Translations under genes and position numbers: made by a program
DNA from: Diphasiastrum complanatum
Taxonomy: Eukaryota; Streptophyta; Lycopodiopsida; Lycopodiales; Lycopodiaceae
Direction: 5' to 3'
Length of the DNA: 64,000 bases
Assembly: GCA_029204225.1 (NCBI GenBank)
Contig: CM055094.1
Span: forward strand, 19,474,702-19,538,701
Notes under the pieces: model-generated
What the model saw: the letters and a program-made list of their open reading frames with translations, nothing else
Databases searched by the model: none
Told to the model about the DNA's origin: nothing
Shown: positions 1 to 64,000 of the stretch, piece after piece
Layout of the letters: the number at the start of each line of letters is the position of its first letter
How positions within the stretch are numbered: position 1 is the stretch's first letter

Positions 1-1357
1 AAAATCATAAGCATGCTAGTAAGTCGACTCTGATAGGACGAAAAGACGGGGACAAGTCAGTTCCAACGACGGCATCTAATTCGATCGGGAGCTCTTCTCA
101 GCCAGATTTAATTTCGTCGACCGGTTGGAGAGCTCCATTCCTCAAAGATACGTACGTCTATGAAATGCTTTCACCAAAGCAAATTCAGAATGATCCTTCT
201 TTCGACCCAAGTTTTCGTAGAGGACGAGCGCTAGCATGGAGATCGGAAGACAACATATCTACATATCCTTGCAACTTTGCGATAATAGATGGCTCGTTCT
301 CTTCTCAGAAGGAATGTCATACATCAATCAATAATTCCTAGGAACTGAGTTCCGATTCTCGCGATCCTAAAATCCAGCTACAACAGAAGTTCTGCCTGAT
401 TCTGATACTGTCATGGGCCAAAGGTTTGAGCAAGATCCACAATTTTTCATCAATCCCAACAAAGTGGTCCTTCACATGGAGGATACCAGGATCTATTTAC
501 GGATTCAATACTTTCCTGCAGACTCCATACATATCTTCGAAGAGATGTGCACTTCAGGATTTATTATCAATGCTGATGAGGGTTACATGTACACCCAGAG
601 ATCAAAAGCATTTACTGGTCGAAGACAAATACTGACTCGAAACTGCTTCAACTGGCTACGTGAGCAAAATCATAAGCATGCTAGTAAGTCGACTCTGATA
701 GGACGAAAAGACGGGGACAAGTCAGTTCCAACGACGGCATCTAATTCGATCGGGAGCTCTTCTCAGCCAGATTTAATTTCGTCGACCGGTTGGAGAGCTC
801 CATTCCTCAAAGATACGTACGTCTATGAAATGCTTTCACCAAAGCAAATTCAGAATGATCCTTCTTTCGACCCAAGTTTTCGTAGAGGACGAGCGCTAGC
901 ATGGAGATCGGAAGACAACATATCTGCATATCCTTGCAACTTTGCGATAATAGATGGCTCGTTCTCTTCTCAGAAGGAATTTCATACATCCATCAAGAAT
1001 TTTTGCAAATTAACTTCCGATTCTGATGATCCTACAATCAAGCTACAACACAAGTTCTGCCAGTTTCTGATGACTGTCATGGGCCGAAGGTTTGAGCAGG
1101 ATCCACAATTTTTCATCAATCCCAAAAAACCGGCGCTTCACATGGAGGATACCAGGATCTATTTACGGATACAATACTTTCCTGCAGACTCCATACAAAT
1201 CTTCGAAGAGATGTGCACTTCAGGCTTTATCATCAATGCTGATAAGGCTTACACCCAGAGATCAAAAGCATTTGCTGGTCGAAGACAAATGCTGACTCGA
1301 ACCTGCTCCAAGTGGCTGCGCGAGCAATATCATAAGCATGATGCCCACTATTCCTGA
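1..1357 (+). pseudogene. A-block gene, C-terminal part, tandemly duplicated
   Basis: Unrecognised protein family. The first ~665 bases are repeated by the next ~675, so the C-terminal part is present twice in tandem. The first unit enters from the left edge in frame 3, and stops near 340 (a TAG after a Ser-Ile-Asn-Asn-Ser stretch). An uninterrupted ORF from ATG 413 to 1357 (314 aa) then covers the end of unit 1 and all of unit 2. The repeated module contains RFEQDPQFFINP, a LHMEDTRIYLRIQYFPADS stretch and a basic tail ending near WLREQ-HKH. The N-terminal membrane segment seen in the copies at 25.1k and 43.6k lies outside the window here. The duplicated state plus an internal stop suggests a decayed copy, but the 314-codon run is long for pure debris. 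Confidence 0.55.
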
Positions 1358-1689
1358 ACAAATGTTATGAAGAAAATCCTTTAGGCGCAATTTCTTGAAT
1401 TGAGTACATTGAAAACATCAACATTTGTTGATTGGAGCTTTTAAGATTGACCATTATAGTCATCTAGGGCCAATGTATATGGCACTCAACTGCTAATCTA
1501 TCTCTCCACTGCTTTTGAAATGTCCACTTTAGTTCATGATCTATGATCCTTCTTCTCGTTGTGTATATATATATGTTCTCATCGTTGATATTTGATTTAA
1601 TGTATTAAATGAACATTGAATGCGCATTAAATCAAAATCAACAATAATTAGGTTACACATATTATGTTCAAAAAATATTTAGACACACA

Positions 1690-1902
1690 ATGAAAATATC
1701 ATATCGACAAGAGAGAACATATCACGGCAAAAGGACTAGACATAAATTGTTTGTTAGTGATCATCCATCCAAAGTAGGCGCACCACTTCCAAATTCTAAT
1801 GTTACTCCAAGCCTTTTTGTGAGACTACTAATATTTTTGGAAAACACATGTTCTTCATATTCCAAGCATGCTCAGCATACCTCCAAGCACATAGCAAAGT
1901 AA
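1690..1902 (+). CDS. Small conserved ORF, 70 aa, unknown
   Basis: ATG-started ORF lying about 330 bases after the A-block gene on the same strand. Near-identical copies occur at 23053-23265 and 42635-42847 (both minus), each open over its full length. It is rich in basic and Ser residues with a hydrophobic LFVRLLIFLE stretch. No family recognised. Conservation may only reflect recent block duplication, so coding status is doubtful. Confidence 0.25.
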   Translation: MKISYRQERTYHGKRTRHKLFVSDHPSKVGAPLPNSNVTPSLFVRLLIFLENTCSSYSKHAQHTSKHIAK

Positions 1903-2179
1903 ACCGTACATCTTCTTTCCTTGCCCTACTTGTTGGTCTTCATCTCGTATGGTAAGTACTCGACCCTTGATTGTTCCTTTGAATAAGAGCTTTTTGCTAT
2001 AGTTTCAAGAGAGAAGCTTCCTGGGAAAGGGTCAACTTGGGAGTAGCTTAATATATTGATGTCATTTCAAATCATGATATCTTCATGGTTGTCACTCAAA
2101 ATAATAGTAAACTGTTTGGTAACTTGGGGTAGCTTGATATGTAGCTAGACAACTAAAGAACAAATCACCTCTAGATGGC

Positions 2180-2520
2180 TTCACAAGCTTGTCTAACTCA
2201 TTCTTATAATTACTACCATTGTGTCTAACTTGCCAAATGCTAGGTGTAAAAGTATTTGACAAATGCATAACTCTTTACTCTCCAAGTCTTAAGACTTACC
2301 AAGTGTTGTTTGCAGCTCATACTAGATGCTTTGAGAAGTTATATTAAGAATTGGGGGGGGGGGGGGGGGGGGGGGGGGGTTATCGCAAAGAATCCGATCT
2401 TGCCAAATACTAGGTGTAAAAGTGTTTGACATATTCCTAACTCTTTACTCTCCAAGTGTTGTTTTTAGCTCATAGTACATGCTTTGAGAATAATGTTACT
2501 GGTTATATTAATTTGGGGGG
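2180..2520 (+). repeat. Dispersed repeat family, two tandem copies around poly-G
   Basis: A ~125-base sequence (TTGCCAAATRCTAGGTGTAA through a TTATATTAA followed by a G-run) occurs here twice, at about 2225-2379 and 2401-2520. Related copies are at 11000-11170 (minus), 22450-22780 (minus, two), 42040-42340 (minus, two), and 58430-58575 (plus). A more diverged relative is near 16.4-16.6k, 26.25-26.4k, 44.6-44.75k and 53.0-53.15k. I cannot assign it to a known transposon class. Confidence 0.6.
2353..2379 (+). repeat. Poly-G tract (27 G)
   Basis: Uninterrupted run of 27 G after TTATATTAAGAATT. Counterparts differ in length: 22580-22602 (C), 42165-42184 (C), 10993-11002 (C) and 58568-58576 (G). 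A run this long can form G-quadruplexes and is prone to replication slippage. Confidence 0.9.
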
Positions 2521-2625: not shown

Positions 2626-3253
2626 TAAAAAAAAATGAAAAACTATTTCTCCTTAGAGGCATTGTGGTCATCATCTAGACGAGCTGTGCTTGCTTGAATC
2701 AATAGAAACAAAGAAAATAATAATAACCAGTTTTTATCCTATTAATGCACCAATAATATATAAATATAATTGAATTAAATGGGAAGATTATAATATTTAT
2801 CGCTTCATTTAAACATTGATCTACTAATTTCAATGATTTCGTTCAAATTCGAATTCCAATGATTTGTGAAGTGTGAATGAATGCAATGTAACTTGCATAT
2901 GTTTGGAACATAGCATAGATTCATTATATGCTTTTTAACTATGTGTTATTTAGTCGTGTAACAAGGAATAAGCATTTTTTTTAACAAATTTTCAATTTGT
3001 TTTTGGAAACCCTAGATTACAACATTTTAATATATTAACAAAATTGACTTAATTTGCATGAACAACTTTGAGTTTTGAAAATCCTAGATTACAGCTTCAT
3101 TCAATCTTCAAATTTCCAAGCTCGTTCAAACTTCAATGAAATATAATTCATTCCAAAATCCATTCTCGAATCCTAGAACGATGTATTTTAAAAACTTTTG
3201 TAATGTGAAAGAGAGATCACTGAGCTAAAACATGACCCTGATTGCATTCTGAA

Positions 3254-3735
3254 TTGCTTTCAAAAACTTATAAATTGTATTCATCAATGGAGATGTCTAG
3301 AGGACATGGTGTGAAAAATTGTCAACTAGTTTGGTTTTTTATTTGGCAATTTTGGAGGCCAAAATGAATCTCAACTTTGAGTTAGTTTCATATTTGTTAA
3401 TAAGGGCCTAAATAGTAGTTTAACTACCTCTGGCAAGTAGATAAGTGGATGAGGTCGAGTTTGGACCCATTCTAATTGGCTAAATTTTGGTACATTGCTT
3501 TCAAAAAGCTTATAAATTGTATTCATCAATGGAGATGTCCAGAGGAGATGGTGTGAAAAATTGTCAACTAGTTTGGTTTTTCATTTGGCAATTTTGGAGG
3601 CCAAAATGAATCTTAACTTCGAGTTAGTTTCATATTTGTTAATAAGGGCCTAAATAGTGGTTTAACTACCTCTGGCAAGTAGATCAGTGGATGAGGTCGA
3701 GTTTGGACCCATTCTAATTGGCTAATTTTGGTACA
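3254..3735 (+). repeat. 241-base tandem duplication
   Basis: The sequence beginning GCTTTCAAAAACTTATAAAT at 3255 recurs at about 3496 with a GCTTTCAAAAAGCTTATAAA start, and similarity continues to the TGGCTAATTTTGGTACATTG near 3735. The A' block carries the same pair inverted (about 40.85-41.32k), so the duplication predates the block copies. Noncoding. Confidence 0.75.
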
Positions 3736-4024
3736 TTGCATCTAGACTAGATTTTCTAGGTTTTTGATAAAGTATCTAGAAGTTTCCAAATTAGGTCAAG
3801 TTTGGGGCAAGTGGCCAAATGACATTTTGGAAGATATAAATAGTTGTACCTAAGTGGAGAAATAATCATCAAAGTTTCTTTCTTTGTGGAGAATTCATCT
3901 CTTATGTCCATCTCATGTGATTTTCTCTATCTTGGTTTTCTATGTGTAGAATGTTGATTTTCTTGTAGATCTTGATTCCACACGTGTGACGATTATAATA
4001 TATATGATTTTGTTAAACATCGAT

Positions 4025-4240
4025 CTACAAACATTTCAATGATTTTTCTTCAAATTCAAATTTAACGATCTTCCCATGTGTGGTGAGTTGGTGTATGCGC
4101 TTTTGTTGGGCTTGTACACTCAAGTTTGATTCTTTGGGATCCTTCGCCAACTGTGGTTTCAATACTTTCTCTGCAAGATTCTCATTTGAAATTTGCTTGG
4201 GACCCTTCTTATCTCCATCAGATATTTGTTTCAACGTTGA
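4025..4240 (-). CDS. Conserved short ORF (~67 codons), unknown
   Basis: On the minus strand this reads a Lys/Gln/Glu-rich peptide (SDGDKKGPKQISNENLAEKV, then a GKIVKFEFEEKSLKCL end and stop). The same frame is open at 40337-40546 (plus). It sits directly beside the CT/GA microsatellite, and its 3' end overlaps inverted repeat arm 2. Composition is protein-like and hydrophilic, perhaps the end of an exon or of a retroelement gag. No family recognised. Confidence 0.3.
   Translation of the reverse strand, partial: STLKQISDGDKKGPKQISNENLAEKVLKPQLAKDPKESNLSVQAQQKRIHQLTTHGKIVKFEFEEKSLKCL
4035..4140 (+). repeat. Inverted repeat arm 2 (partner at 2518-2625)
   Basis: Matches the reverse complement of 2518-2625, including GATCTTCCCATGTGTGGTGA and the GTACACTCAAGTT core. 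The 22.2k junction carries this arm's outer flank joined to the outer flank of arm 1. Confidence 0.75.
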
Positions 4241-4266
4241 TGCTAGGCCATACCACAGGCAAGTAG

Positions 4267-4424
<158 letters not shown>

Positions 4425-4435
4425 CCAGTCAAGCC

Positions 4436-5215
4436 TACATGGCAGACCCACGTGGTATAGCTTAGTTGGCTTGCCACACAAGCCTATGTCAAGCCTATAT
4501 GGCAGACTGTATCAAGCCTATATCATGCCTATATGACCTACCACGCAAGCCTATGATAGGCCTACATGGCTTGCCACATGGCAAGTCCCAAGCCTATGTG
4601 GTTTATCTCATGACATGCCTACATGGCTTGCCACATGGCAACTTGGGAGCCCCAGCTCTCTCTCTCTAGCTCCACTCAAGCCTACATGGCAGAGCTTGGT
4701 TGGCTTGCCACACAAGCCTATGGCAAGCCTATGTGGTATCCTGTGACATGCTTACGTGGGAAGCATCACAAATATGCCATGCCTATGTGGCCTGCCATGC
4801 ATGCCTATGGCTTATCTCATGACATGTCTACATGGCTTGCCACATGGCAACTTGGGAGCCCCAGCTCTCTCTCTCTAGCTCCACTCAAGCCTACATGGCA
4901 GAGCTTGGTTTGCTTGCCACACAAGCCTATGGCAAGCCTATGTGGTAGCCTGCGACATGCTTAGGTGGGAAGATTAATATGCCATGCCTATGTGGCCTGC
5001 CACGCAAGCCTATGGTAGGCCTGTATGGTTTGCCAAGTGGCATCTTTTGAGCCCACCTATATATATATATATATCTCTAGGTCCACTCAAGCCTACGTGG
5101 CACAGGGCTCAGTTGGCTTGACATACAAGGTTATGGTAGGCCTACAGGGCTTGCCACATGGCAACCCTCAAGCCTGCATGATTTGCCATGTGGCATACCG
5201 CTGTCATAGGTGTTT
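4436..5215 (+). repeat. CAAGCCTA/TTGCCACATGGCAA minisatellite array
   Basis: Degenerate array built from CAAGCCTAYRTGGC and GGCTTGCCACATGGCAA units, with an internal ~230-base duplication (ATGGCAACTTGGGAGCCCCA at about 4636 and 4845). The TTGCCACATGGCAA core is nearly palindromic. Other arrays of the family are at 12200-12620, 39946-40121 and 56960-57365. A short (AT)n stretch lies near 5058-5074. The array's edge supplies the C-terminal codons of the histone-like ORF. Confidence 0.8.
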
Positions 5216-5589
5216 CGAAATCTCATGACAAGAAGCATGTCCTTGGGCATCAGTGTTACCCCCTTGCCATGAATGGAACACAGCATCGAATCCTCAAACA
5301 ATTTTGTCTGGAAGTCCTCGTATGCAATATGGAGGGCCTCCAATGCAGCGATATTCCACCTCACTGCATAGGGCAGATGGGTTGTCATATCTTGTGTAAC
5401 CTCCCTCACAGCCCGATACAAGGCTGCTTTTGGGATCACAAGTTTGGTGTACCTCTGCAAGGCCCTGATGTCCCTCAACCATGGACGGCGAGGTCTTCCA
5501 CGTCTTTGCGGACGTATGGGTTCAGATGTCTGGAGACGGGACGGTTGAACAAAATGGGTAAGCCTAGCAGTTTGCTTCGTCCGAGCCAT
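5131..5589 (-). CDS. Divergent CENH3-like histone H3, intact ORF
   Basis: Encodes 152 aa from a true ATG at 5589. The tail starts MARTKQTAR, exactly as histone H3, but Lys9 is Leu and the later acetylation/methylation lysines (14, 18, 23, 27, 36) have no equivalents; the tail is short and Arg-rich (RRGRPRRP). The histone fold spans about residues 37-126. In it IP replaces the IR of canonical H3 (LVIP, residues 50-53), RW is at 77-78, ALEALHIAYEDF at 82-93, and LFEDSMLCSIH then VTLMPKD at 97-117. The IP, RW and SMLC-IH signatures resemble plant centromeric H3 (CENH3) more than canonical H3. Residues after ~130 come from the neighbouring minisatellite, not from H3. There are no introns, unlike typical plant CENH3 genes, which suggests a retrocopy or a captured gene. 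Identification as an H3-fold gene is firm; the CENH3 assignment is probable. Function is unproven. Confidence 0.85.
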   Translation of the reverse strand: MARTKQTARLTHFVQPSRLQTSEPIRPQRRGRPRRPWLRDIRALQRYTKLVIPKAALYRAVREVTQDMTTHLPYAVRWNIAALEALHIAYEDFQTKLFEDSMLCSIHGKGVTLMPKDMLLVMRFRNTYDSGMPHGKSCRLEGCHVASPVGLP

Positions 5590-5725
5590 TAAGGCCGGAT
5601 ATCTATACCATGCGAGGACAAAGATACAACAGAAGAGAGAGCTAAATTATCTCGCGTAATGGCGACACTGAGAACTCTAAGGGTGATATCGCTACAACGC
5701 GAGAGAGTGGCAGAGACAGGCGGGG
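5590..5725 (-). promoter_or_regulatory. Remnant 5' leader of the histone-like gene
   Basis: Upstream of the start codon this copy keeps only the last part of the leader: one complete and one partial unit of the ~85-base repeat (TCGCCATTACGCGAG, CTCTCGCGTTGTAGC on the minus strand). At about 5725 the leader is cut and joined straight into X2 coding sequence. The leader repeats, TATA-like box and G-box array of the 39k copy are therefore missing here. Confidence 0.65.
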
Positions 5726-7110
5726 AGGGGCAGGAAATTGTTTTATATGTACTTGTCCAAATGCCTCTTTGATAATTTCAAACATTGTGTCATATGCATC
5801 CCTGCTAATACGAGAATAATCACATGATCCTTGTATCAATTTTCGGTCAATGATCTTGCCGACTTCACCCATAAGCGCCTCTGCAATCTTGGGCTTGATT
5901 CAAGAATATCGTTGATTTCCAAGTAGACTCGTCGTTGACTTGGCTGTAAGTACTGCACTCAAAGACTTTCCAATCATGTCCTTGTCTTTCAGATTTTCAT
6001 TGGTGACTAAAGCTGCTCTGCAAAATAAAAATAAGATTTAGAAAAAAACAATTCACAACCATTGATGTGCTAGATGAAACAAAACACATGAATAGTTTAA
6101 AACATAATCCTACTTGAAAGCATATATTCTTTTTTTCCATTGACCCCCACTTGTTGAGAGCTCGTCAATAGTGTTTAAAATAACTCTTTTTTGCTTATTG
6201 TTCAGTATTTTCTTCCGTAATGTGTTTACTTCTACATTTATTTGACAATATGAGGTACACAATGTTTGTACAATTAGTTTCATATTGTCAGTTTCTTGGT
6301 TGGGATTTAATATAATATCTTGCAAACGAGAATTATCTATCTTCAATATTTCATTTTCTTCTTTTGTTTGCAAAAAAAAGGTTTATTTTTCTCAGTAGTC
6401 AGTAAGCAAATCATTCAACATATTTTCCAAACAGTGGATTTTCTTCATTGAATAACTAATGCCATAACTTTTCAATCGTTCACAATAACCCAATAGACTA
6501 TTGTGTCCTTCACACAAAAACAGTATGAGTTGTGTGACCGATCTAAAATTTGGATGTTGCATTGAGCTTGGATCGATTGGATACAAACATCCATCAACCC
6601 ATAGATCATAATGTTTCCTGTCTTTCATCCTTTGGTGAGCTGGTAAGGTGGATCCTTTCAGATTTTTTCTCGACAGTGGAGCATATTCTATGGGAAGATC
6701 AATATGGAGATGATATTTAGACATATTAATAATCGATAGATTAATCTAGTAGAAAACCCACATGTTATATATCTTGTAAGCTATTAAAACTCGTCTTAAT
6801 TATATAAAAAAATAACAGTAAAAGTTTGAAATGACCTTGGCACTCTTTTTGATCCATCACACTCCATGTTTCTTGCCTTATATGCAAAATCAAAGCTTTG
6901 CAGTTATGAGCAAAGTAAGCAAAATATTTTTTCAATAGATGTGTGTTGAAATTGCAAATTTTAGATTGCAAGAGTTTGAGATAACCTTGCCGTTCCATTT
7001 GATCCAACGCACTCCATATTTTCAGAATTTCAAAAATTTAGATTCACGTTGGCGCTCATTGTGATCCAAAATATTCAAAGTTTCTTGCCATGATTTGCAG
7101 ATCGATAAGA
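5690..7110 (-). pseudogene. X2 gene, copy 1, 3' end deleted
   Basis: Minus-strand counterpart of the 36.84-38.95k copy. In order it holds the short helical repeats (about 7100-6830, two frames), the MSKYHLHIDLP exon (6724-6392), a frame break at a run of 8 A, the coiled-coil segment (6373-6110), a GT-AG intron (about 6113-6020), and the exon with IGKSLSAVLTAKSTT-like sequence (about 6019-5725). It then fuses to the histone leader in the 76-aa frame 5872-5642. The last X2 exons and the G-box promoter are missing. Confidence 0.6.
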
Positions 7111-7195
7111 CTATTTTTCTTTGATGTGAACGCTTTTGTAGATGGAAAGAAAACTTTGATGTGCAATACGATTTGCATTTACATGAGAAGTCATG

Positions 7196-8720
7196 TTAGT
7201 TAATGGTAGAAAATAGAATCTTGAAGTATGGACCCCACGCGTTGTGGCTACCCAACTTCCAGTTAACTACATATGTTACTAGTGAGGTCAAGTCATCGGA
7301 GTTGTGCGGGCAGACCAAAAACTCGATCGGAGTTTTAAAATTCGACGATTTTCTCTCTCTTACATGGCATTTCTTAGACAGCCCTTTTGGGCCATGGAAC
7401 TCCTCGAATGTAAACTCCATATCATTTGAGTCTGTTTCATCTGATGAAGCATGACGCTTCGCTTGTATCGATCCGTCATCTGTGACATAGAGTACATGGG
7501 TGTCTTTCTCGATGTAAGCTTCACTAGGTCGACCGTCTGGTGCTTTGCAGTTGGCCCTTGTGGAGAGAAAGAACTCTTTCTCTTTTGAGAAGCCGCTTGC
7601 GTGGAATCTGTTGCAATAGGCCTAGAAGTAGAGCTGGTATTCTTGGCTGGTTTTGAGGGAGTCTCCCAAGCTTTTATCTGCTAGCATCAAGTGGTCTCAA
7701 AATCGCGGTCAGTGGCTAAACTGCTGCAAAGTGACATCTATCAGAAGATAGCCCAATAACTGGAGGTTTGCTTGTTCTTGATATAGTCATGGAGGCAGTT
7801 GGAAGCAAACTGGGCCCAGTCATAAAGGTTCTGATCGTGTAGTTTAGAATCAGCCATCATGTGAAATAGTTTCATGGGGATACGCGTGACCGCACGAAGC
7901 AGCTAAGGGCTTATCATTTATGACCTCGATAAGGTAACCATCTTTTTTTTCCCATTTGTCCACTGAGGGGTCTATGTATTTGAAGTATGTTGTGGACTCA
8001 ATCTTTTTGAGGGTCCTATTGACTGTGTTTGGTCCCGTAGGGAAGCCAAATGTATTGAGGTCAACTCCAGAAATAGGGATAATATAAACACAATTTTGGT
8101 TAGGAGGTAACATGAACTGGAAAATCTGATGGTGTGGTTATAAGCAATATGCAATCGAAACGGGCTCTGATAGCCACTGATGAAAAGAGAAAGTTGGAAC
8201 TCTATGTGGCTCGAGAATTAGTGTGCCTCCTGGTACCAAGTATTCATCTCAGAGATATCGAGGCTTTCCATGGTGATGTCAATTCTGTCTTGAGTTGGGT
8301 CATCAGAACTGGAAGATGTTGTGGCAGACAGGTTCTGGACTCGGCTGATGACTCTGTTGAAGGTTCGGCTCTGGCAACAGACAAGTGGAGTCTCAGTTCG
8401 GTCGACTGTGGAGGGCTTCGGATCGGTTGTCTTTAGATGGACTCGGCTCAGTCAACTTTGTATGCAGAGTATGGACGCTCAGCTCAGTCCACAGTGAATG
8501 CAGAGTATGGACGCTCGGCTCAGTCCACAGTGATTGCAGAGCATGGGGCCTAGGCTCTCTGAGCAGTGTATGTAGAGTATTGCTCGGCAGTGTATGGAGA
8601 CTAGAAATTTGTGAAAAACTTTGGAGCAATGTTGCTCTGATAGGATGTGGAAACGATGATTATTGCATGATGATTCAACTGATCTTGTAGGAATGATTTG
8701 AAGAGGCATATTTATGTGCA
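7196..8720 (-). pseudogene. X1 gene, copy 1
   Basis: Minus-strand copy of the unrecognised X1 family. Going downstream: the 36-base minisatellite (about 8460-8560, two to three units), an MSATTSSSSDDPTQD-like start (about 8310; here the first codon reads as CTG/TTG), a GADLNTFGFP segment (8113-7850), a YDWAQFASNCLHDYIKN segment (about 7830-7780), the STRANCKAP segment, and the terminal FTFEEFHGPKGLSKK...FKILFSTIN frame ending at 7196. The Pro/Gln-rich linker of copy 2 is deleted here. Several stops and frameshifts make it non-functional as read. Long plus-strand frames here are shadows. Confidence 0.6.
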
Positions 8721-12117: not shown

Positions 12118-12169
12118 TTAGGGTTTGAAAAAGTTTATCTTCTTGGCTGGTTTTTATGGCAAGAGATTT

Positions 12170-12620
12170 GAGCCCACCTATATATATATATAGATCTCTA
12201 GGTCCACTCAAGCCTACGTGGCACAGGGCCCAGTTGACTTGACATACAAGGTTATGGTAGGCCTACATGGCTTGCCACATGGCAACCCTCAACCCTGCAT
12301 GATTTGCCATGTGGTAGACCTACGTGGCTTGCCATGTGGTAGTGTGCGATAGGCTTCGCAAATAGCAGACCACGTAGGCAGAGCCTGGTTGGCTTGCCAG
12401 CCTATGATGGGCCTACGTGGCTTGCCACGTGACTAGCCCCAAGCCTGCATGATTTGCCACATGGCAGTCATACGTGACTTGACACGTGGGCACCTATCAC
12501 AGCCTTGGTCAATCGCAGGCCTATGTGGCCTGCTACACAAGTCTATGGTAGGCCATGTGGTAAACCACACAAGCCTATGGTAGGACTTAGTGGTTGTAGT
12601 TGTAGCCTTGTAGCCTCAAC
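12170..12620 (-). repeat. CAAGCC minisatellite array, C-block copy
   Basis: Same unit family as 4436-5215, here 5' of the RT gene and preceded by (TA)n. It alternates GGCTTGCCACRTGG and AAGCCTRYATG units. The inverse copy is 56960-57370. Confidence 0.75.
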
Positions 12621-25109: not shown

Positions 25110-26500
<1,391 letters not shown>

Positions 26501-35727: not shown

Positions 35728-36811
35728 CAAAGAACCCCTCGATATCTCTGAGATGAACACTTGGTACCAGGAGGCACACTAGTTCCTGAGCCACATAGAG
35801 TTCCAACTTCCTCTTTTGATCAGTGGCTATCAAAGCCCATTTCGATTGCAGAATGCTTATAACCACACCGACAGATTTTCCAGTTCATGTTACCTCCTAA
35901 CCAAAATTTTGTTTATATTATCCCTATTCCTGGAGCTGACCTCAATACATTTGGCTTCCCTAGGGGACCAAACACAGTCAATAGGACCCTCAAAAAGATT
36001 GAATCCACAACATACTTCAAATACATAGACCCCTCAGTGGACAAATGGGAAAAAAACGATAGTTACCGTATCGAGGTCATAAATGATAAGTCCTTAGCTG
36101 CTCTGTGCGCCTATCTAACAAAATATACATAGGGCTATAGGTCCACATGATGGCTGATTCTAAACTACACGATCAGAACCTTTATGACTGGGCCCAGTTT
36201 GCTTCCAACTGCCTCCATGACTATATCAAGAACAAGCAAACCTCCAGTTATTGGGCTATCTTCTGGTAGATGTCACTTTGCAGCAGTTGAGCCACCGACC
36301 TCGATTTTGAGGCCACTTGATGCTAGCAGATAAAAGCTTGGGAGACTCTCTCATAACCATCCAAGAATACCAACTCTACTTCCAGGCCTATTGCAAGAGA
36401 TTCCACGCAAGCGGCTTCTCAAAAGAGAAAGAGTTCTTTCTCTCCACAAGGGCCAACTGCAAAGCACCAAACGGTTGACCTAGTAAAGCTTACATCGAGA
36501 AAGACACCCATGTACTCTATGTCACAGACGAAGGATCGATACAACCGAAGTGTCATGTTTCATCAGATGAAACAGACTCAAATGATATGGAGTTTACATT
36601 CGAGGAGTTCCATGGCCCAAAAGGGCTGTCTAAGAAATGCCATGTAAGAGAGAGAAAATTGTCGAATTTTAAAACTCTGACCGAGTTTTTGGTCTGCTCG
36701 CACAACTCCGATGACTTGACCTCACTAGTAACGTATGTAGTTAACTGGAAGTTGGGTAGCCGCAACGCGTGGGGTCCATACTTCAAGATTCTATTTTCTA
36801 CCATTAACTAA
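35728..36811 (+). pseudogene. X1 gene, B' copy, lacks 5' end
   Basis: Begins inside X1 at SLDISEMNTWYQEAH, then a TAG, the ISGYQSPFRLQ frame, GADLNTFGFPRGPNT (35930s), the YDWAQFASNCLHDYIKN region, STRANCKAP (about 36445), and the intact terminal 74-codon frame FTFEEFHGPKGLSKKCHVRE to FKILFSTIN and stop at 36811. No promoter or minisatellite. X2 follows on the same strand within 100 bases. Confidence 0.6.
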
Positions 36812-36839
36812 CATGACTTCTCATGTAAATGAAAATCGT

Positions 36840-38947
36840 ATTGCACATCAAAGTTTTCTTTCCATCTACTAAAGCGTTCACATCAAAGAAAATTAGTCTT
36901 ATTGATCTGCAAATCATGGCAAGAAACTTTGAATACTTTGGATCACAATGAGCGCCAACGTGAATCTAAATTTTTGAAATTCAGAAAATATGGAGTGTGT
37001 TGGATCAAATGGAGTGGCAAGGTTATCTCAAACTTTTGCAATTTCAACACACATCTATTGAAAAAATATTTTGCTTATTTTGCTCATAACTGCAAAGCTT
37101 TGATTTTGCATATAAAGCAAGAAACATGGAGTGTGATGGATTAAAAAGAACGCCAAGGTCATTTCAAACTTTTCCAATTATTATTTTTTATTATGAAGAC
37201 GAGTTTTAATAGCTTACAAGATATATAACAAGTGGGTTTTCTACTAGATTAATCTATCGATTATTAAGATGTCTAAATATCATCTCCATATTGATCTTTC
37301 CACAGAATATGCTCCACTATCGAGAAAAAATCTGAAAGGATCCACCTTACCAGCTCACCAAAGGACGAAAGACAGGAAACATTGTAATCTATGGGTTGAT
37401 GGAAGTTTGTATCCAATCAATCCAATCTCAATGCAACATCCAAATTTTAGATCGGTCACACAACTCATACTGTTTTTGTGTGAAGGACACAATAGTCTAT
37501 TGGGTTATTGTGAAAGATTGAAAATTTATGGCATTAGTTATTCAATGAAAAAATTCCACTGTTTGGAAAATATGTTGAATGGTTTGCTTACTGACTACTG
37601 AGAAAAAGAAACTTTTTTTTGCAAACAAAAGAAGAAAATGAAATCTTGAAGATAGATAATTCTCGTTTGCAAGATATTATATTAAACCTCAACCAAGAAA
37701 CTGACTATATGAAACTAATTGTACAAACATTGTGTACCTCATATTGTCAAATAAATGTAGAAGTAAACCCAATACAGAAGAAAATACTGAACAATAAGCG
37801 AAAAAGAGTTATTTTAAAAAGTATTGATGAGCTCTCAACAAGTGGGGGTCAACGGACAAAAAGAATATATGCTTTCAAGTAAGATTATGTTTTAAAATAT
37901 TCATGTGTCTTGTTTCATCTAGCACATCAATGGTTGCGAATTGTTTTTTTTCTAAATCTTATTTTTGTTTTGCAGAGCAGTTTTAGTCACCAATGAAAAT
38001 CCGAAAGACAAGGACATGATTGGAAAGTCTTTGAGTGCAGTACTTACAGCCAAGTCAACGACGAGTCTACTTGGAAATCAACGATATTCTCGAATCAAGC
38101 CCAAGATTGCAGAGGCCCTTATGGGCGAAGTCAGCAAGATCGTTGACCAAAAATTGATACAAGGAGCATGTGATTATTCTGGTATTAGCAGGGGTGCATA
38201 TGACACAATGTTTAAAATTATCAAAGAGGCATTTGGACAAGTACATATAAAACAATTTCCTATTCCCCGGCCCTTTCAAATCAAATTAGAGAGGGATGTG
38301 TTAAACAAGGGTTTGCAAAACATCATTGGTATTCCTTACCATATCAATGAAATTTATAACTCAAAACATGGCACTTTGTCATATGATTCTACCAACAATA
38401 TGTTTGTAGATCTGAATCATTTATAGAGATTTATTGTAAAGTTTTATGGAATCACAAATGAAATTGTTGGAAAATTGATATTAGTTCTCCAAGTTAGATG
38501 AATCAGAAGTAATAAAGGGACAAAAGCTGGAAAGGGTTAGTTTTACACTTATGAATGGAACATTAAGCAATACGATAAACTCGGAGAGTCTTAATTTCAG
38601 TGTGCAGTCCGAAAATAATATTTGGTGGTTGGCAGCTTTCCAAGTTTAAATCTATTCTATTTCATTTCAATAAATTAATGGTTTTGTGTTTTAAGCTAAT
38701 ATTAGTTTGTTATTATAATTCTCTTAAAATAGTTCATGATTTTGTGTTTCAAACAGGTTTTAAAGAAGATCATGAAATTCTATTTTGGATTTTTAGTAAA
38801 ACAGAATATCTTGAAATAATTAAGAATCATATGAGTGACACACCAATCAATGTTCCTAGAATAGGTGATTTTAAGGTGGAATGGTATTTTGTTCGCACAC
38901 CAAGAGCTACAGGGAGTGAAAATCCAAAACTTAGCGAAATGTTTTAA
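36840..38947 (+). pseudogene. X2 gene, most complete copy
   Basis: Unrecognised multi-exon gene. The 5' part has three degenerate ~19-residue helical repeats (ETLNTLDHNERQRESKFLKF; WSVLDQMERQGYLKLLQF-like; ETWSVMDQKERQGHFKLFQL) in two frames. ATG 37269 opens MSKYHLHIDLSTEYAPLSRK for 110 codons to a TGA. After a run of 8 T (frame break) comes a coiled coil (EENEILKIDNSRLQDIILNL) to 37878. A 97-base intron follows, then AVLVTNENPKDKDMIGKSLS through KLIQGACDYSGISRGAYDTM and HGTLSYDSTNNMFVDLNHL, stopping at a TAG (38424) after which the frame stays open (KFYGITNEIVGKL). Last exon GFKEDHEILFWIFSKTEYLE ends at 38947. Probably a decayed gene. Confidence 0.55.
37879..37975 (+). other. GT-AG intron in X2
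   Basis: GTAAGATTATG donor and TTTTTGTTTTGCAG acceptor bound a 97-base AT-rich intron. Removing it joins the frame ending AF to AVLVTNEN through one Lys codon, with no shift. Equivalent donor and acceptor are kept in 63700-63800 (GTAGG donor) and on the minus strand at about 6113-6020, evidence that the ancestral gene was spliced. Confidence 0.75.
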
Positions 38948-38989
38948 CTGATCAAACAACATTTATATAGCTAAAACCAATAAAATCCA

Positions 38990-39440
38990 AGCCGTACACT
39001 CGTCGATCCAACAGCGGATCGGATCTATGGCGGGTAATACAACCGTCCACACATGTGAGACCACACGTGCTACAATACATGTCAATCTGCCATTCGGCCA
39101 CGTGCCCACACGTGCAAGCAAACACGTGCCAGAACACACGTCACCACACCAGTCGACCACATGGCCACATGTGCAAGTTTCACACATGCGGATACAGAAG
39201 TGTGGTCCCACACGTCAAGTACTGATTGGGCCACGTGACCACACGTGCGAGCCGATACGTGCAAGAACACATGTCGCTGATCCATTCGGCCACGTGTCCC
39301 CACATGGGATCCCACACGTGTTGATCCAGACGTGCAGTTTCACACATGCATATACAAATGTGTGGTTCCACATGTCAGCTATTGACTGGGCCACGTGTCG
39401 CTGGGATTCACACGTGCCAACTTGTTTCTCCTACATAAGT
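38990..39440 (+). promoter_or_regulatory. G-box (CACGTG) array before the histone-like gene
   Basis: About ten exact CACGTG hexamers between 39064 and 39417, plus many ACGTG/CATGTG variants, arranged as degenerate ~160-base repeats (GTTTCACACATGC recurs at about 39176 and 39337). CTACATAAGTCCATTCC follows at 39431, a TATA-like box that is TATATAAG in the other two copies. It lies ~330 bases upstream of the truncated histone-like ORF and 40 bases after X2. CACGTG is the classic plant bZIP/bHLH site; the regulators are not known. Confidence 0.6.
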
Positions 39441-39514
39441 CCATTCCTGGGGATTGTATAGGTTTTCGCGTAATTTGCTGTCATGTTTGATTGCTTCCAT
39501 ACGACCTGCATGCG

Positions 39515-39766
39515 TGATATCGCCATCATGCGAGCGACCTCGTCTCCAGGCCTATTCCTGACACCCTCTCACGTCGTAGCGATATCAGCCTGACTTTCCT
39601 AGTATCGCCATCATGCAAGCCCCTGCCTCTCCCCACCTGTCTTTGCCACTCTCTCGCGTTGTAGCAATTTCACCCTTAGAGTTCTTAGTGTCGCCATTAC
39701 GCGAGATAATTTAGCTCTCTCTTCTGCTATATCTATGTCCGCACATGGTATAGATATCCGGCCTCA
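39515..39766 (+). repeat. Three ~85-base repeats in the histone leader
   Basis: ATCGCCATCATGCGAGC starts at about 39519, a close copy at 39604, and a diverged one (GTCGCCATTACGCGAG) at 39690, with CCTGTCTTTGCCACTCTCTC and CGTYGTAGCRATWTCA motifs in the repeat bodies. They fill the space between the TATA-like box and the ATG, so they would be transcribed leader. They also contain small ATGs (ATC ATG) that could act as upstream start codons. Confidence 0.7.
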
Positions 39767-39945
39767 ATGGCTCGGACGAAGCAAACTTCTAGGCTTACCC
39801 ATTTTGTTCAACCGTCCCGTCCCCAGACATCTGAACCCATACGTCTGCAAAGACGCGGAAGACCTCGCCATCCATGGTTGAGGGACATCAGGGCCTTGCA
39901 GAGGTACACCAAACTTGTGATCCTGAAAGCAGCCTTGTACCGGGC

Positions 39946-40282
<337 letters not shown>

Positions 40283-61130: not shown

Positions 61131-62624
61131 TTTCCACATCCTATCAGAGCAACATTGCTCCAAAGTTTTCACAAATTTCTCGTCTCCGTACACTGCCGAG
61201 CAATACTCTACATACACTGCTCAGAGAGCCTAGCCCCCATGCTCTTCAATCACTGTGGACCGAGCCAAACGTCCATATTCTGCATTCATTGTGGACTGAA
61301 CTGAGCATCCATACTCTGCATACAAAGTTGACTGAGCCGAGTCCGTCCAAAGACGACCGATCCGAAGCCCTCCACAGTCGACCGAGCCGAGACTCCACTT
61401 GTCTGTTACCAGAGCCGAACCTTCAACAGAGTCGCGAGCCAAGTCCAGAACCTGTCTGCCACAACATTTTCCAGTTCTGATGACCCAACTCAAGACAGAA
61501 TTGACATCACCATGGAAAGTCTCGATATCTCTAAGATGAACACTTGGTACTAGGAGGCACACTAGTTCCTGAGCCACATAGAGTTCCAACTTCCTCTTTT
61601 GATCAGTGGCTATCAGAGCCCGTTTCGATTGCATATTGCTTATAACCACACTGACAGATTTTCCAATTCATGTTACCTCCTAACCAAAATTTTGTTTATA
61701 TTATCCCTATTTCTGGAGCTGACCTCAATACATTTGGCTTCCCTAGGGAACCAAACACAGTTAGTAGGACCCTCAAAAAAATTGAATCCATAGCATACTT
61801 CAAATACATAGACCCCTCAGCGGACAAATGGAAAAAAAAGATGGTTATCGTATTGAGGTCATAAATGATAAGCCCTTAGCTGCTCCGTGCGCCTATCTAA
61901 CAAAATATACATAGGGCTATAGGTCCAAGATCACGCGTATCCCCATGAAACTATTCCACATGATGGCTGATTCTAAACTACATGATCAGAACCTTTATGA
62001 CTGGGCCCAGTTTGCTTCCAACTGCCTCCATGACTATATCAAGAACAAACAAACCTCCAGTTGTTGGACTATCTTCTGATAGATGTCACTTTGCAGCAGT
62101 TGAGCCACCGACCTCAATTTTGAGACCACTTGATGCTAGCAGATAAAACCTTGGGAGACTCCCTCAGAACCAGCCAAGAATACCAACTCTACTTCTAGGC
62201 CTATTACAACAGATTCCACGCAAGCGGCTTCTCAAAAGAGAAAGAGTTCTTTCTCTCCACAAGGGCCAACTGCAAAGCACCAAACGGTCGACCTAGTGAA
62301 GCTTACATCGAGAAAGACACCCATGTACTCTATGTCACAGACGAAGGACCGATACAAGCGAAGTGTCATGCTTCATTAGATGAAACAGACTCAAATGATA
62401 TGGAGTTTACATTCGAGGAGTTCCATGGCCCAAAAGGGCTGTCTAAGAAATGCCATGTAAGAGAGAGAAAATCGTCGAATTTTAAAACTCCGACCGAGTT
62501 TTTGGTCTGCCCGCACAACTCCGATGACTTGACCTCACTAGTAACGTATGTAATTAATTGGAAGTTGGGTAGCCACAACGTGTGGGGTCCATACTTCAAG
62601 ATTCTATTTTCTACCATTAACTAA
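61131..62624 (+). pseudogene. X1 gene, last B' copy
   Basis: Plus counterpart of 7196-8720. Minisatellite at about 61240-61325, an MSATTS-equivalent region at ~61457 (start codon lost), GADLNTFGFPREPNT at ~61720, YDWAQFASNCLHDYIKN at ~62000, STRANCKAPNGRPSEAYIEK at ~62265, and an intact end FTFEEFHGPKGLSKKCHVRE to FKILFSTIN at 62624. Confidence 0.6.
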
Positions 62625-62649
62625 CATGACTTCTCATGTAAATGCAAAC

Positions 62650-64000
62650 CGTATTGCACATCAAAGTTTTTGTTCCATCTACTAAAGCGTTCACATCAAA
62701 GAAAAACTGTCTTATCGATCTGCAAATCATGGCAAGAAACTTTGAATATTTTGGATCACAATGAGCGCCAACGTGAATCTAAATTTTTGAAATTCGAAAA
62801 ATACGGAGTGTGTTGGATCAAATGGAGCGGCAAGGCTATCTCAAACTTTTGCAATTCAAAAATTTGCAATTTCAACACACATCTATCGAAAAAATATTTT
62901 GCTTATTTTGCTCATAACTGCAAAGCTTTGATTTTGCATATAAAGCAAGAAACATGGAGTGTGATGGATCAAAAACATCGCCAAGGTCATTTCAAACTTT
63001 TTCAATTATTTTTTTTATAATTAAGACGAGTTTTAATAGCTTACAAGATATATAACAAGTGGGTTTTCGACTAGATTAATCTATCGATTATTAAGATGTC
63101 TAAATATCATCTCCATATTGATCTTCCCACAGAATATGCTCCACTGTCGAGAAAAAATATGATAGGATCCACCTTAGCAGCTCACCAAAGGACGAAAGAC
63201 AGGAAACATTGTGATCTATGGGTTGATGGAAGTTTGTATCCAATCGATCCAAGCTCAATGCAACATCCAAATTTTAGATTGGTCACACAACTCGTAATGT
63301 TTTTGTGTGAAGGACACAATGGTCTATTGGGTTATTGTGAAAGATTGAAAAGTTATGGCATTAATAATTCAATGAAAAAAATTCACTGTTTGGAAAATAT
63401 GTTGAATGGTTTGCTTACTGACTACCGAGAAAAAGAAACTTTTTTTTGCAAACAAAAAAAGAAAATGAAATCTTGAAGATAGATAATTCTCGTCTGCAAG
63501 ATATTATATTAAACCTCAACCAAGAAACTGACAATATGAAACTAATTGTACAATTATTGTGTACCTCATATTGTCAAATAAATGTAGAAGTAAACACATT
63601 ACGGAAAAAAATATTGAACAATAAGCAAAAAAGAGTTATTTTAAAAAGTATTGACGAGCTCTCAACAAGTGGGGGTCAACGGAAAAAAAGAATATATGAT
63701 TTCAAGTAGGATTATGTTTTAAACTATTCATGTGTTTTGTTTCATCTAGCACATCAGTGGTTGTGAATTGTTTTTTTCTAAATCTTATTTCTATTTTGCA
63801 GAGCAGCTTTAGTCACCAATGAAAATCCGGAAGACAGGGACATGATTGGAAAGTCTTTGAGTGCAGTACTTACAGCCAAGTCAACGACGAGTCTACTTGC
63901 AAATCAACGATACTCTCGAATCAAGCCCAAGATTGCAGAGGCCCTTATGGGCTGAGTTGGCAATATCATTGACCGAAAATTGATACAAGGAGCATGAGAT
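62650..64000 (+). pseudogene. X2 gene, last copy, cut by window edge
   Basis: Helical repeats at 62730-63010, MSKYHLHIDLPTEYAPLSRK exon from 63096. Here the TGA after LLTDY is CGA, so this copy reads 126 codons through the T run (63437-63444). The coiled coil follows in another frame (63446-63709), then the intron (about 63707-63802) and the IGKSLSAVLTAKSTT exon. A TGA replaces the GEV of MGEVSKI at ~63951. It continues past the window. Confidence 0.55.

Follow-up and report, generated by a model that had tools for sequence, protein, structure and literature searches.

Histone genes carried by transposons are, as such, already known from fungi. H3-like genes have been described in hAT transposons of Pyrenophora tritici-repentis (H3L) and Pseudocercospora fijiensis, according to the available parts of two papers (PMC3538342, PMC6710886). 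For plants, the accessible portion of a review (PMC13317346) covers Ulp1-carrying Mutator-like elements, i.e., Kaonashi/KIU and Vandal with VANC. The same portion states for the Vandal VANC/KIU case that a transposon gene brings hypomethylation, and that some of these elements carry Ulp1 (PMC13317346). Our searches of the open-licence literature turned up no transposon described as carrying an H3-Ulp1 fusion, and likewise no report of a plant host, of several old families, or of selection acting on a transposon histone.

Here, we analyzed a 64-kb stretch of the clubmoss Diphasiastrum complanatum assembly (C3:19,474,702-19,538,701), referred to as the window. Its H3-like frame is best explained as a truncated, neutrally evolving copy of a transposon-family gene that couples an H3-like to an Ulp1-like part, together with the role that we infer for this gene below; we assign this reading as a whole a probability of roughly 0.8. 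Its structural part appears firmer still: comparison of copies argues strongly for an H3-like part followed by an Ulp1/C48-like part, located in elements with inverted termini, occurring in several families and held by selection on the histone between families.

The H3-like frame of the window and its relatives

The open frame at 5131..5589 is real and lies on the minus strand, with its ATG at 5589, its stop at 5131, and a length of 152 codons. It is a truncated copy of composite origin. Codons 1-130 (5200..5589, minus strand) encode an H3-like tail and histone fold, their homology with the transposon gene reaching as far as about nucleotide 388-390. Codons 131-152 (5131..5199, minus strand) are not histone sequence; they derive from an adjacent 154-bp repeat unit (5046-5199), which is 95% identical to 12167-12320 and to 57401-57248. 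This agrees with the original prediction that repeat DNA supplies the last 22 or so codons.

The Pfam Histone profile (PF00125) matches the frame with 72.6 bits (E 4.5e-20, cutoff 26.4), in line with the predicted histone identity, and at this score the match is not a chance one. Among sequences of solved structures, 174 distinct entries reach E 0.001 or better, with H3 variants at the top. In the protein database, the closest relative is a D. complanatum hypothetical protein, P0001, with 81% identity over 89%. Rfam and tRNA scans of the 64-kb window gave no matches. The N-terminus MARTKQTAR equals the first nine residues of canonical H3, while the later tail differs: Leu replaces Lys9 and residues 6-36 contain no lysine. 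The motifs IP (52-53), RW (77-78), LFEDSMLCSIH and VTLMPKD are present as well, so that the sequence features originally listed were all recovered.

Predicted helices at residues 36-46, 54-66, 75-107, and 115-125 fit the H3 fold, at low confidence of the monomer model (pLDDT 62.4). A Foldseek search with this low-confidence model returned ten matches, with no histone among them and a best E of 7. The host CENH3, folded as a control with nearly the same alignment, gave the same helix lengths and an equally poor model (pLDDT 65.8); hence, structure prediction says little for or against an H3 fold.

The window frame is highly repeated. In a genome search, the best 150 of 7,378 first-look candidates (a number that is not a copy count) were scored, and all 150 match at 80-100% identity. 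We refer to the repeat family containing the window frame as family A. Across the genome, a 26-base motif taken from the gene is matched 359 times with at most three mismatches, the reversed control not once. Copies are spread over many chromosomes and form dense clusters on C3 and C14, which hold 92 of the 150 best matches, the other 58 being located elsewhere. The dense clusters, at C3 18.5-21.8 Mb, C3 29.9-30.2 Mb, and C14 49.4-49.9 Mb, are made up of truncated copies in either orientation and at irregular spacing; they may mark a centromere or a rearranged region. The window itself is largely built as an inverted repeat, positions 1-31000 and 64000-32000 being about 93-95% identical, with breaks.

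Five H3-like families, A to E, were distinguished. A search with Arabidopsis CENH3, in which the best 150 of 5,403 candidates were scored, yielded 13 canonical H3 genes and 137 H3-like repeats (E 1e-18 to 1e-14). Sixteen of these 137 were fetched and comprise 14 members of family B and one each of families C and D. Families C, D, and E are represented by one copy each, family E having been met beside C. Family B (14 loci, L047-L053 and L056-L062) has many copies and shows a long polyproline stretch followed by the H3-like end KDLHLARRLRRERN; there is no Ulp1-like part within its frame.

In families A, D, and E, Lys4 is retained and Lys9 is missing. All 68 cluster copies sampled below have Lys4 and Leu9, and 55 of them are free of lysine in residues 6-36. 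Nine further rows of A, D, and E all carry Lys4, with Leu (7), Pro (1), or Ile (1) at position 9, and nine out of ten dispersed copies sampled by motif have Lys at 4 and Leu at 9. In the tree alignment, family A has extra residues in loop 1, while C, D, and E show the canonical H3 length. For annotators, it is of practical note that most H3-like frames with a MARTKQTAR tail in D. complanatum belong to transposons; P0001 is publicly filed as a hypothetical protein.

Parent gene and element architecture

Six dispersed family A copies (L031-L036) were taken from the best matches, mostly for their long frames. The frames around the H3-like part comprise 376, 376, 379, and 382 codons in L032, L034, L033, and L031, respectively; two of the six copies are broken in exon 1, among them L035, which is frameshifted there. 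Downstream of the H3-like part, the six-copy alignment reveals splice-like limits; L055, a copy of family D, shows such limits at the same places and in the same phases as family A. These limits outline a predicted four-exon gene, in which the H3-like part is followed by a basic, proline-rich linker and an Ulp1-like domain. The window frame had been described as intronless. This applies to the histone part, whereas related copies have three predicted introns further downstream, in the region that the window copy, cut after codon 130, has lost together with the protease part.

The Peptidase_C48 profile matches the spliced L035 with 21.5 bits (cutoff 20.7). The spliced family D copy, which has two in-frame stops, scores 19.8 bits and thus just under the same cutoff. 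Neither exon 1 alone nor hand-joined pieces gave a match to this profile. In the Ulp1-like domains of A and D, HW, QQ, and CG are present, and MNSL, with Asn, stands at the expected catalytic Asp; we take these positions to be those of the Ulp1 catalytic His, Asp, Gln, Cys motif. A homologue search with the 357-codon protein produced 1,277 candidates, none of them at E 0.001 or better.

The element around this gene has a left terminus CATTAGAGGAGTTCC in L035 and L036, with similar termini in L033 and at 7410, 36597, and 62410 of the window. Read as reverse complement, the right limit of L035 is CATTAGAGAAGTTTC, and that of L036 differs little from it. The resulting inverted termini are CATTAGAG(G/A)AGTT in L035 and similar though less well kept in L036. 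On C7, the histone gene of a family C element is flanked by a perfect inverted pair of 27 bp, the right outer end of this element being lost. Inside the termini, the histone gene is accompanied by frames that we labelled S, X, Y, gene 2, and Z. Three of these frames (X, gene 2, and Z) have relatives that turn up again close to H3-like genes in family C, D, or E. Pfam searches on the neighbouring frames gave matches below cutoff only, with no hAT or MULE transposase domain in the pieces scanned, and by eye no target-site duplication was recognised in L035 and L036. On structural grounds, the elements are very probably multi-gene DNA transposons with short inverted termini, the transposase itself still being putative. 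The claim that the frame belongs to a mobile, amplified unit with its own H3-type histone is borne out in that it falls within this repeated transposon family.

The window contains parts of three such elements. The one with the 152-codon frame is internally deleted: its left end (5732..7410, minus strand), comprising the terminus CATTCGAGGAGTTCC at 7410, frame S, and the start of X, is joined straight to the leader of the histone gene (5590..5734, minus strand). The junction lies at about 5734, the remaining element being deleted, and the leader is defined by alignment to L032 (-144..388) and L036 (-117..388). A second copy on the plus strand begins with a left terminus at 36597 and an S and X region (36597..38661, X frame 37965-38426). 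It continues with the start of frame Y (38739-38889) and the region upstream of the histone gene (38739..39766), and ends in a second, shorter H3-like gene copy that is cut after codons 1-60 (39767..39947). The third copy (62410..64000, plus strand) has its left terminus at 62410 and its S frame at 63096-63476, while its H3-like frame, L015, with one TAA, starts at 65563, outside the window.

Two further observations concern rearrangements and repeats. In L033, the right-hand Z region is found twice, inverted, at +1178..2362 and +3121..4290 from the ATG. Long pure CT/GA arrays occur at 4268-4421, 25114-25304, and 40122-40280 of the window and recur at element junctions.

Selection, decay and ancestry

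For the cluster sample, 68 copies (65 distinct) were used out of 92 cluster rows, partial rows and some near-repeats being left out. Their mean distance from their own majority sequence is 3.2%. Over codons 1-130, the omega-like ratio is 0.99 (bootstrap 0.75-1.33; 220 variants, with the mutation spectrum allowed for), next to 0.95 and 1.03 in the wrong-frame controls. For variants shared by at least nine copies, the ratio is 0.63 (0.29-1.46), on too few variants to be telling. Eight stop-creating variants are observed in codons 1-130, where 9.5 are expected; the frame is open in 38 of the 68 copies and the ATG is kept in all of them. The cluster to which the window frame belongs drifts neutrally. 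The idea of a recent or selected gene at this locus does not hold: the 68 cluster copies are neutral, the window copy is cut after codon 130, and among the 68 it alone has Gly at residue 116, the others having mostly Arg116. Neutral evolution, which the original prediction had listed as evidence against itself, is what the local copies display.

The picture changes beyond the clusters. Ten dispersed copies sampled by the DNA motif, badly broken (one of ten open) and only roughly aligned, give an omega-like ratio of 0.48 (0.30-0.81) for shared variants and 1.24 for private ones; the wrong-frame controls for shared variants are 1.39 and 0.94. Between families, the histone part of A and D differs by a pN of 0.30-0.31 and a pS of 0.74-0.82, and the ranges across A, D, and E are 0.30-0.36 and 0.65-0.82, with pS at or near saturation. 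Since synonymous sites are nearly saturated and the histone part is nevertheless kept, the gene has long been under purifying selection in mobile lineages. This is how a gene would look that is important while elements move and falls into decay once they have inserted. The prediction that the open frame is more than debris is thereby right for other element families, which hold their histone under purifying selection, and wrong for the neutral window copy.

One observation points the other way: a stop at codon 45 is common to six of the ten motif-sampled copies (L107, L109, L110, L112, L115, and L116). Such sharing indicates that a subfamily without intact histone has spread, and hence that the gene is not needed in cis; this defective subfamily probably spread with help in trans.

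The host has a CENH3 of its own, a separate, spliced single gene (O6H91_03G120200; P0014, 152 aa) at about 74.76 Mb of C3, the same chromosome as the window. A coding-motif search for it gave 29 matches, one of which, at C3:74,762,854, is unlike canonical H3. Two exons at this place led to P0014, followed in the list by CENH3 of Selaginella, Marchantia, and Physcomitrium. The retrieved regions L067 (C3:74761800-74766500) and L068 contain the last two exons only. The earlier ones are not found in the next 8 kb upstream, which implies a long intron or a rearranged assembly there.

In the tree, P0014 groups with the CENH3 proteins of Selaginella and liverworts and is separated from the transposon rows. 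A branch with support 93/80 sets off the 12 transposon rows, and the transposon and CENH3 rows together lie on one side of a long-branched split with 70/80, which is not starred; starred inner branches number 5 of 24. Forcing canonical H3 and the transposon rows into one group costs the best tree 16.8 log units (p-AU 0.037), a weak rejection with long branches, and the nesting inside canonical H3 that would have spoken against the original prediction was not found. The transposon proteins appear to form a long-branched group of their own. The window frame is accordingly no copy of the CENH3 that the host has today, and not clearly one of host H3 either. Its designation as CENH3-like is justified as far as IP, RW, and DSML recall CENH3; on the other side, the nine N-terminal residues are canonical, loop 1 is of canonical length in C, D, and E, and the tree gives no clear verdict on ancestry.

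Candidate roles and comparison with known systems

Several readings of the gene have to be weighed. A functional host gene whose frame has stayed open in decaying surroundings is a highly improbable reading of the window frame. The open frame and the ATG retained in every cluster copy would suit such a gene, as would an NG86 ratio of 0.31, but this value came from 30 copies picked by protein score, and the spectrum-corrected ratio is 0.86 for these top 30 alone and 0.99 for all 68 copies. The number of stops close to expectation, the 38 of 68 open frames, the last 22 codons taken from repeat DNA, and the missing protease part also argue against it. A host H3 gene may instead have been picked up passively and hitch-hike along, as in the fungal hAT elements, precedents of which are given in the available parts of PMC3538342 and PMC6710886. 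The neutrality of local and private changes and the spread of the shared-stop subfamily are compatible with a passenger. We nevertheless regard passive capture as rather unlikely: a mere passenger would not retain its frame across families whose synonymous sites have become saturated, and both the low ratio among shared variants and the exon layout common to families A and D speak against it.

Somewhat less remote, though still doubtful, is that the H3-like fold goes back to an ancient capture of a plant CENH3, that the protein goes to centromeres, and that the elements bias insertion or segregation. The IP, RW, and DSML signatures, the common branch side of transposon and CENH3 rows (70/80), and the weak rejection of a grouping with canonical H3 (p-AU 0.037) point in this direction. 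Against it stand the unstarred support and long branches, a tail that begins as in canonical H3 (ARTKQTAR) where host CENH3 has MPRRKSSP, the canonical loop-1 length of C, D, and E, and copies on many chromosomes despite the dense clusters on C3 and C14. If CENH3 ancestry holds, the elements would also be tangible candidates for mobile DNA that affects centromere identity.

The role that we tentatively prefer for the transposon gene is one in escape from silencing. The protein would be an H3 variant that joins nucleosomes. With a tail that has Lys4, lacks Lys9, and contains almost no other lysine, chromatin of the element would be unable to receive H3K9 methylation, and the fused protease would remove SUMO nearby. 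Acting together, histone and protease could keep the element's DNA open for its own expression and movement. This anti-silencing mechanism is an idea of limited probability. The same caution applies to its evolutionary form, in which a lineage of plant DNA transposons may long have used its own H3 (Lys4 kept, Lys9 dropped), fused to a SUMO protease and built into element chromatin, for blocking silencing marks of the host. The combination of Lys4 kept, Lys9 dropped, and a SUMO protease leads to a sharp, testable prediction on H3K9 methylation. If true, transposons that supply their own nucleosome part to escape silencing would add a new kind of strategy to the conflict between mobile DNA and host genomes.

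Each of the known systems shares some features with the clubmoss elements. Plant CENH3, represented by P0014, has the H3 histone fold and RW in loop 1 in common with the window frame, at an identity-level likeness of 37% or less to its core; it differs by its other tail (MPRRKSSP instead of ARTKQTAR), the absence of a protease part, and its separate place in the tree. The Vandal VANC/KIU case is the nearest printed parallel to an anti-silencing role. In the accessible portion of the review, Mutator-like elements are likewise plant DNA transposons with an extra Ulp1-domain gene, and related Vandal genes counter silencing (PMC13317346). They differ in that the word 'histone' is absent from this review (PMC13317346), while the clubmoss elements have no MULE transposase domain in the pieces scanned. 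The fungal hAT elements, according to the available parts of the papers, resemble the clubmoss elements in having inverted termini, an H3-like gene beside other frames, and many copies, which in P. fijiensis are mostly broken. In contrast, these parts describe a hAT transposase and 8-bp target duplications and report no H3 fusion, whereas the clubmoss elements combine an H3-like with an Ulp1-like part in a predicted fusion, have introns, several old families, and a histone apparently held by selection, with no hAT domain in the pieces scanned.
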